Source of the DNA: Dehalococcoidia bacterium
Lineage (GTDB): Bacteria > Chloroflexota > Dehalococcoidia > DSTF01 > WHTK01
Assembly: GCA_035574915.1 (NCBI GenBank)
Contig: DATLYJ010000063.1
Span: 1 to 42,929, forward strand
Length of the DNA stretch: 42,929 nucleotides
Direction: 5' to 3'
This document shows positions 18,997-21,000 of this stretch, in pieces. Both the position numbers and the translations under genes were made by a program. A model generated the notes under the pieces. It saw only the letters and a list, made by a program, of their open reading frames with translations. It was not told where the DNA came from and searched no databases. Positions within the stretch are counted from its first letter, which is position 1; the number at the start of each line of letters is the position of its first letter.

Positions 18997-20019
18997 CTAC
19001 GCGATCCCCAGCTCGGCCTTCACCCGCCGCACCGCCTCGATCATCACGCGGATCTTCGCCGCCGCTTCCTCCCAGGTGCGCGTCTTCAGCCCGCAGTCCG
19101 GGTCGACGTAGATCTTCTCCGGCGGCAGGACCTCCAGGGCGAGCTTGATGCCCCTTACGACCTCCTCCACCGTCTCCACTCTGTGCGTGTGCACGTCGAG
19201 CACGCCAAGGCCCAACTCGGCGTTGAACCCCTTGCGCTTCATTATGTCGATGAGGTCGTAGCCCGAGTTCGCCATTTCCAGGTCGAACTGGTCAACCGGC
19301 ATCTTGATCAGCTCGTCATACGCCGGGGCGAAGTCGCCGTAGCAAATGTGCGTGATGGTCTTCGCCTTGAGGTTCTTCGTAACGACCCCCATCGCCTCAT
19401 TCGCCAGGGCGATGTCTTCGAAGCGCGTCGAAACCGCAGGCTCGTCGATCTGGATATACTGCGCCCCGGCCGCATCGAGCGCCTCAGCCTCCTGGCGGAT
19501 CACCTCTGCCATCGCCATCACGGCCTCGCGGCGGCTCGGGTAGTACTCGTCGAAGGACCACTCGACCATGGTGTAAGGGCCCGTGAGCATGCCCTTCACC
19601 GGCTTGGAGGTCAGTGACTGCGCGTACTTCCACATGTCGACCGTCACCGGCTTCTCCCAGCGCAGCGCGCCGTCGATCACCGGCTTGTGGTAGTAGCGGT
19701 TGCCGTAGGAGCGCACGAGGCCCCCGATGTGCATGGACGGGAACTCCTCCGCGAAGTACGCGACCATGTCGCCGCGCTCCATCTCGCCGTGCACCAGGAT
19801 GTCGAGCCCAAGCTCCTCCTGCAGCTCGATGACCTCTTTCGTGGCCTGCAGCGTCAGGCGCTCCAGCTCCGCTTTGTCCAGCCGTCCCGCGGCGTACTCG
19901 TTGCGGGCCTTCTGGAGGTAGTCGGGCTTGCCAAACGAGCCTACGCTCGTGGTCAGGAGTCCCGTCCTGGCCCGCTGCGTGGCCTCCGGCGCCGGTTGCC
20001 TGTTCGCGGTTGTCGTCAT
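18997..20019 (-). CDS. Core-MetE-type methionine synthase (zinc-dependent methyltransferase domain)
   Basis: 340 aa, corresponding only to the C-terminal catalytic half of cobalamin-independent methionine synthase. All four zinc ligands are visible: His224 and Cys226 (THICYGDF), Glu248 (DLEMANSG), Cys309 (DPDCGLKTR). The homocysteine pocket is kept in TTSVGSF (Ser28) and IDEPA (Asp192). Short core-MetE proteins of this kind, described from Dehalococcoides and archaea, take the methyl group from a methylated corrinoid protein rather than folate. Use of such a donor here is inference. The start ATG overlaps the stop of the upstream paralogue (ATGA, 20016-20019), so the two are translationally coupled. 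Confidence 0.88.
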   Translation of the reverse strand: MTTTANRQPAPEATQRARTGLLTTSVGSFGKPDYLQKARNEYAAGRLDKAELERLTLQATKEVIELQEELGLDILVHGEMERGDMVAYFAEEFPSMHIGGLVRSYGNRYYHKPVIDGALRWEKPVTVDMWKYAQSLTSKPVKGMLTGPYTMVEWSFDEYYPSRREAVMAMAEVIRQEAEALDAAGAQYIQIDEPAVSTRFEDIALANEAMGVVTKNLKAKTITHICYGDFAPAYDELIKMPVDQFDLEMANSGYDLIDIMKRKGFNAELGLGVLDVHTHRVETVEEVVRGIKLALEVLPPEKIYVDPDCGLKTRTWEEAAAKIRVMIEAVRRVKAELGIA

Positions 20020-20987
20020 CCCAATGCCTCCCGGGCCTTCTTCACGCCCTCAACCAGGCGCACCAGTTTGTCGTACGCCTGCTCGCGCGGGAGGAACTCC
20101 AGGCCCATGTTTGGGTTCACATACAGGTTAGCAGAGCCGGCAACCTCCACCGCCTCCCGCACCCGCGCCACGATCTGCTCCACTGTCTCCAGGCGCGTGT
20201 TGCGCGAGTCGACCACCCCTGCCGCCAGCTTCCGCGGCCGCGGGCCGGCCCTGATCTGCTCGCTGCCCCTGGGGTCCACGTAGTCCACCCCCACGGTAGT
20301 GAACCCGGCCTCGATCGCGGGGCCCAGCGCGGCGCCCGGGACGCCAAAGTAGAAGTAGACGGCAGTCTCGGCGTTCACTCCGTCGAGGAGCCGCCGCCAC
20401 ACCTTAGCGGCGAAGGACGCGTCCTCCTGAAAGCGGCAGGCGGCGGGTTCGTTGAACTGCACGAGGGTCGCTCCCGCTGCCACCAGCGCCTTCGCTTCCC
20501 GGTTCAGCGCCTCTGCGAAGGCCAGCGCGACGCTGACCGTGTCGGCGTAATGCTCGTTCTTCGAGAGCCTCGCCAGAGTCAACGGGCCGGTCAGTACCGG
20601 CTTTACTGGCCTCTCGCTGTTCGCTTTCGCGAACTCGAAGTCCCGCACCGTGATCGGGCCCTTCCAGGCGATGGGGCCTTTGATCAGCGGCTCACGGTAG
20701 AAGGTGTTGGTGTCGAAAAAGCGGATCAGGCCAGTGATCTCGATGCCGGCCATGGCGCCCGCGAGATAGGTCTGCTCGTCGTCCCAGCGGATCTGGCCGT
20801 CGGTGACGAGCTCCACGCCGGCTTCGGCCTGCTCTTTGAGGACCTCGATGGTGACCTGATCCTGGACCTTCCTGACGTCCTCCCAGGTGATCTCGCCCCT
20901 GTCGAACCGGGCATAGGCGTTGCGAAGCCGCGCCGGCCGCGGCCGGTTAGGGATTTTCGGATAGTTACCGACGACGGTGATGATCAA
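20016..20987 (-). CDS. MetE-like paralogue lacking zinc ligands
   Basis: 323 aa, same fold and length class as the downstream core-MetE, but every zinc ligand is replaced on alignment: Tyr211 and Tyr213 for His/Cys (AVYFYFG), Asp235 for Glu, Met294 for Cys (NPNMGLE). The homocysteine residues also differ (GNY for GSF, NEPA for DEPA). TTG start with AAAGGAG 6 nt upstream. It is encoded first in the operon and overlaps the catalytic paralogue by 4 bp. Possibilities are a non-catalytic partner or regulator of a heteromer, or an enzyme with another methyl donor/acceptor. The function is unknown. Confidence 0.82.
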   Translation of the reverse strand: MIITVVGNYPKIPNRPRPARLRNAYARFDRGEITWEDVRKVQDQVTIEVLKEQAEAGVELVTDGQIRWDDEQTYLAGAMAGIEITGLIRFFDTNTFYREPLIKGPIAWKGPITVRDFEFAKANSERPVKPVLTGPLTLARLSKNEHYADTVSVALAFAEALNREAKALVAAGATLVQFNEPAACRFQEDASFAAKVWRRLLDGVNAETAVYFYFGVPGAALGPAIEAGFTTVGVDYVDPRGSEQIRAGPRPRKLAAGVVDSRNTRLETVEQIVARVREAVEVAGSANLYVNPNMGLEFLPREQAYDKLVRLVEGVKKAREALG

Positions 20988-21000
20988 GCCTCACTCCTTT

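Follow-up and report, generated by a model that had tools for sequence, protein, structure and literature searches.

Tandem MetE enzymes, such as those of E. coli and T. maritima (1XPG/1T7L), carry two barrels that lie face to face in one chain, with the N-barrel preceding the C-barrel and the zinc site present only in the second. The N-barrel of the T. maritima enzyme has long been known to be ligand-free, with Tyr232, Asp253 and an NEPA sequence, and Lys104 of the MetE N-barrel contacts folate (PMC539065). The majority of the folate-binding residues reside in the C-barrel. A DMV sequence joins the homocysteine site to the folate site. Arg493 of the T. maritima enzyme makes contact with the first glutamate of folate, and its Trp539 stacks on the pterin (PMC539065).

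A split form of MetE was reported in 2021 by Price et al. in archaea and one bacterium (PMC7857596). Its members include PF1268/PF1269 of Pyrococcus furiosus, which are encoded by adjacent genes and form a complex, as well as proteins from Halobacteria, Thermoprotei and Sulfobacillus sp. hq2. In that study, the catalytic component was recognized as a protein of <400 aa with a phmmer score of at least 200 bits to PF1269, and the second component as a protein of <400 aa whose Meth_synt_1 score exceeds its Meth_synt_2 score (PMC7857596).

Single-barrel enzymes form the remaining comparison. The MesB or core-MetE enzyme of Dehalococcoides mccartyi is a zinc barrel that acts without a partner, uses methylcobalamin as methyl donor and occurs without metF (PMC7005905). 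MesA, MesC and MesD belong to the same Pfam family as the proteins examined here, but they also lack an N-barrel partner. MesA is said to resemble the catalytic component of split MetE (PMC7857596), and MesD needs MesX (DUF1852) and oxygen.

The window analysed in this study is a stretch of 42,929 nucleotides from a Dehalococcoidia bacterium (contig DATLYJ010000063.1). Its minus strand carries two paralogous MetE-family genes, here called UP (upstream) and DN (downstream), and both ORFs were confirmed (Table 1). Very probably, the two proteins constitute a split cobalamin-independent methionine synthase in which the two halves of MetE are made separately. Their sequences align over 330 columns with 30% identity (E 9e-48), which is far above chance, and the ATGA overlap of their genes suggests translational coupling. 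A search of the entire window against Rfam gave no match. The surroundings of the pair show a single weak promoter-like match and nothing resembling a terminator, which says little about regulation.

Table 1. Features of the UP-DN gene pair, with coordinates given as positions in the window.
Feature	Coordinates	Strand	Basis
UP, predicted N-barrel subunit of split MetE, 323 aa, TTG start	20016..20987	-	Pfam, tree, fold
DN, predicted catalytic zinc/homocysteine subunit of split MetE, 340 aa, ATG start	18997..20019	-	PRK04326, Meth_synt_2, tree, fold
ATGA, DN start (ATG) overlapping UP stop (TGA)	20016..20019	-	sequence
AAGGAG, Shine-Dalgarno-like, 6 nt before UP TTG	20994..20999	-	sequence
UP Tyr211-x-Tyr213, replacing zinc ligands His and Cys	20349..20357	-	alignment; Tyr213 = T. 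maritima Tyr232 (PMC539065)
UP Asp235, replacing zinc ligand Glu	20283..20285	-	invariant Asp; = T. maritima Asp253
UP Met294, replacing zinc ligand Cys	20106..20108	-	alignment
UP Arg89-Phe-Phe-Asp-Thr-Asn94, counterpart of N-barrel K(W/F)F(N/D)TN motif with Lys104	20706..20723	-	alignment; Arg89 and Asn94 invariant
DN His224-x-Cys226, predicted zinc ligands	19342..19350	-	alignment to E. coli His641/Cys643; invariant in 24 DN proteins
DN Glu248, predicted zinc ligand (E. coli Glu665)	19276..19278	-	alignment
DN Cys309, predicted zinc ligand (E. coli Cys726)	19093..19095	-	alignment
DN Asp84-Met85-Val86 (DMV)	19762..19770	-	alignment
DN Arg108 = T. maritima Arg493	19696..19698	-	alignment
DN Trp154 = T. 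maritima Trp539	19558..19560	-	alignment; invariant among 24 DN proteins

On alignment with E. coli MetE, the columns of the zinc ligands His641, Cys643, Glu665 and Cys726 are occupied in UP by Y211, Y213, D235 and M294, and those of Ser433, Glu484 and Asp599 by N8, Q65 and N179. In DN, the latter three columns hold Ser, Glu and Asp, such that the homocysteine residues are kept. The original prediction, which was made from the sequence of the locus, had described two paralogs with an ATGA overlap, of which DN keeps His224, Cys226, Glu248 and Cys309 and UP has Tyr, Tyr, Asp and Met at these places and has lost the homocysteine-site Ser and Asp. All of this is borne out by the sequence comparisons, with Asn found in UP at both of the homocysteine positions.

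The losses in UP are those already known for the MetE N-barrel rather than the marks of a new pseudo-enzyme. No UP protein among 24 aligned pairs has the full set of zinc ligands, and Asp occupies the Glu665 column in all 24 as well as in each of the 10 tandem N-barrels aligned. UP carries QFNEPA where the T. maritima N-barrel has NEPA, and a (K/R)xF(D/N)xN motif is common to UP and the tandem N-barrels. However, the basic residue of this motif has no diagnostic value by itself, since Arg occupies that column in DN too. The residues Arg89, Asn94, Asp235 and Glu297 are fixed among the relatives of UP. An alternative zinc site in UP, which the original prediction had named as a finding that would speak against it, was considered and rejected: the only His (H146) and the only Cys (C184) of the protein are both unconserved, and no Cys or His is conserved at >80% across the UP family.

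When folded alone, each protein gives a confident barrel (mean pLDDT 92.7 for the AlphaFold2 model of UP, and pLDDT 88.9 for DN), and the best fold match for both is the T. maritima MetE structure 1XPG with zinc and methyltetrahydrofolate (TMq 0.86 for UP and 0.89 for DN). The fold search thus identifies a MetE barrel in both cases, but it does not tell which half of MetE is matched by UP.

The descent of the two proteins was examined with a tree of 67 rows, built by a quick method, in which long branches were flagged among the tandem N-barrels. A branch with support of 99 sets the UP proteins, together with the tandem N-barrels and another UP-like group that is divergent, apart from the DN proteins, the tandem C-barrels and the single-barrel proteins. 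On the latter side, DN and the tandem C-barrels group together with support of 97, and the sampled single-barrel relatives fall outside this group. Because of the long branches among the tandem N-barrels, the branching order on the N side of the tree is uncertain. With this caveat of long branches, UP is, as far as the tree indicates, orthologous to the MetE N-barrel and DN corresponds to the C-barrel. Stand-alone relatives with full ligands, which the original prediction had also named as evidence that would count against a paired function, do exist, but those found fall on the catalytic-barrel side and leave the paired reading standing.

Genes similar to UP are located directly before genes similar to DN at all 29 related loci (L005, L007-L028 and L050-L055, of which L005 and L054 may be one genome). 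A 4-base overlap is possible at 22 of these, and at the other seven a start codon for DN is found 2 to 7 bases past the stop of UP. The joint conservation of the pair and of the ligand loss, which had been proposed as a check, is observed. The UP proteins vary faster than their partners (mean column identity of 47% for UP and 62% for DN), which, along with the loss of every zinc ligand, might be expected if UP had arisen by a recent duplication and were now decaying or had become a regulator unrelated to catalysis. Yet no break in the reading frame of UP is seen at any of the 29 loci, and the four residues named above are fixed. Moreover, forcing UP and DN into a private duplication shared by the pair costs 108.6 log-likelihood units and is rejected (p-AU 1.65e-5). 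The fixed residues and this tree test led us to discard recent duplication or decay of UP, which we regard as highly improbable.

DN scores 281.3 bits with Meth_synt_2 and 409.6 bits with NCBIfam PRK04326, a curated single-barrel 'methionine synthase' model (equivalog) with a cut-off of 406 bits. Its predicted folate site resembles that of tandem MetE in part. The Asp-Met of DMV and the counterparts of Arg493 and Trp539 are kept in 24 of 24 DN proteins, and the seven single-barrel relatives sampled lack all of these, save for Arg493 in one. Two positions differ, however. At the column of the pterin-anchoring Glu583 of T. maritima, each of the 24 DN proteins has either Thr or Ala (Thr in that of the window), and the column of Arg496 holds His in the DN protein of the window. 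Therefore, folate recognition must differ in detail, and the strongest objection to a folate site that is MetE-like throughout is the missing Glu583 of DN. The pair also departs from tandem MetE in comprising two chains without an inter-domain linker.

The original prediction had pointed to core-MetE enzymes, and had offered the acceptance of methyl from a corrinoid protein as one role for a ligand-free partner. Under such a scheme, DN would be a core methionine synthase of the Mes type that receives its methyl group from a corrinoid protein, with UP serving as a pseudo-enzyme for docking or regulation. The size of DN (~340 aa) is that of a core enzyme, D. mccartyi of the same phylum has a methylcobalamin-dependent core-MetE (PMC7005905), and Glu583 is not conserved in DN. 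However, DN groups with the tandem C-barrels, core-MetE falls outside the DN clade among the sequences tested, and DN retains DMV, Arg493 and Trp539 and passes the PRK04326 cut-off. Because of this tree position and these MetE folate-site residues, the pair is not a core-MetE with an extra partner.

The gene content of the genome bears on the same question. Searches of it revealed neither CdhD nor a corrinoid iron-sulfur protein (CoFeSP), and neither a MetH activation domain (Met_synt_B12) nor a B12-binding_2 (MetH cap) domain, although these absences are not absolute because the genome is 96% complete. A corrinoid donor is unlikely because none of these domains was found. The one MTHFR domain that the genome encodes is part of a PRK08645 fusion protein of 647 aa, which also has a homocysteine S-methyltransferase domain (L004 427-2370, contig C42). 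By contrast, Dehalococcoidia with core-MetE have been reported to lack metF (PMC7005905). Unlike core-MetE or MesB, which stand as single barrels in genomes with the corrinoid iron-sulfur protein, UP and DN form a conserved pair in a genome without CdhD. On the basis of tree position, folate-site residues and the lack of CdhD and MetH cap domains, we set aside a core-MetE with a corrinoid donor as very unlikely.

The UP-DN pair is the sole match to PF01717 in its genome, which has no tandem MetE. A second S-methyl_trans protein is present, for a total of two such domains of a type different from MetE and MetH, and these homocysteine S-methyltransferase domains could also allow methionine to be made from other donors. 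Among relatives, the MetH activation domain was not found in any of the 29 genomes that bear the pair, but it occurs in 5 of the 11 genomes of the same order that lack the pair (G277, G291, G303, G305 and G306), a difference with p ~7e-4 by Fisher's exact test when kinship is ignored and some incomplete genomes are included. The presence of MetH in pair-less relatives suggests that one type of methionine synthase has been replaced by another within the order, with split MetE standing in for MetH.

The conserved pairing suggests that UP and DN form a heteromer. Most likely, this is a heterodimer that passes a methyl group from a methylated folate to homocysteine bound at the zinc of DN, where the complex, the donor and the activity are all inferred. 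The zinc barrel of DN would bind and activate homocysteine and would hold most of the folate-binding residues. UP, having neither a zinc nor a homocysteine site, would pack face to face with DN, close the cleft for the methylated folate and add a small number of basic contacts. Transfer of the methyl group would then be direct, from folate to the zinc-bound thiolate with no need for B12, and the overlapping start and stop codons would couple translation so as to favour equal amounts of the two proteins.

Both proteins might instead act on a thiol other than homocysteine or on a pterin other than tetrahydrofolate. Price et al. proposed alternative pterins for the split MetE of thermophilic archaea (PMC7857596), and the pterin-contacting Glu583 differs in DN. 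This reading is improbable, however, given the conserved homocysteine-site Ser, Glu and Asp of DN, the presence in the genome of a Pterin_bind protein of the FolP type with a FolK-like ORF (named from its sequence) after it, and the lack of MetH in pair-bearing genomes. A related view is that the Chloroflexota split enzyme has diverged in its methyl donor, where the missing Glu583 would reflect another pterin or a non-folate donor and UP would be a donor-specific subunit. We consider this shift unlikely as well.

Under the preferred reading, a split MetE, UP and DN are not a new system but a further case of an arrangement that has already been described in archaea. As in the published description of those cases, two adjacent MetE-family proteins of <400 aa are encoded, one with a zinc site and one without, and usually they are the only MetE/MetH-type methionine synthase of the genome. 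DN, at 340 aa and with His/Cys/Glu/Cys ligands, agrees with the description of the catalytic component, where closeness to PF1269 was gauged by proxy from its PRK04326 score. UP falls outside the literal rule for the second component because its Meth_synt_2 score (100.6 bits) exceeds its Meth_synt_1 score (71.5 bits), the latter being above the gathering cut-off of 27 bits. That rule is a search filter and not a biological definition; its authors admit that it misses such proteins, and the same situation occurs in an accepted-looking pair from Methanonatronarchaeum (PMC7857596). Other differences from the described split enzymes are the Chloroflexota host and the common 4-base overlap.

Of the original interpretation, what stands is a catalytic zinc barrel paired with a ligand-free paralog and, as suggested by the conserved pairing, a heteromer. 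The proposal of an undescribed two-protein system is not supported, since a report of split MetE appeared in 2021 (PMC7857596). A search of the open-licence literature for 'split MetE' gave no further relevant paper, and its occurrence in Chloroflexota may, within such papers, be unreported so far. These findings extend split MetE from the one bacterial example named by Price et al. to many Chloroflexota, and they explain a pair that is otherwise open to misreading as a core-MetE with a mystery partner. UP and DN also offer natural two-chain material for asking why MetE needs a second, inactive barrel.

Among the best matches, the pair was found in 22 of 300 sampled genomes of the phylum; within the order, 6 of a further 17 genomes carry it. 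Of the named relatives, the Chloroflexi MAG SZUA-185 is the closest, and a scan of genome contigs with UP gave a single relative. A search of plasmid proteins gave matches of <60% identity only, and metE is named in those of the listed matches that carry an annotation.

Two variants were observed among the relatives. The catalytic subunits of eight loci (L020, L021 and L023-L028) carry Ala at the column of the zinc ligand Glu665, giving His, Cys, Ala, Cys with the motif LDLAMAN or LDLAMSN, and have PHPDCG in place of (V/I)DPDCG. If the donor shift considered above were true, this clade would represent a further functional step. In addition, genomes of one family (f42; L046 253-2309, L047 and L048) carry a normal pair plus a second, divergent MetE-like pair, whose catalytic member keeps the zinc ligands and has lost the DMV Asp, Arg493 and Arg496. 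The genes of the second pair at L046 again overlap by 4 bases.
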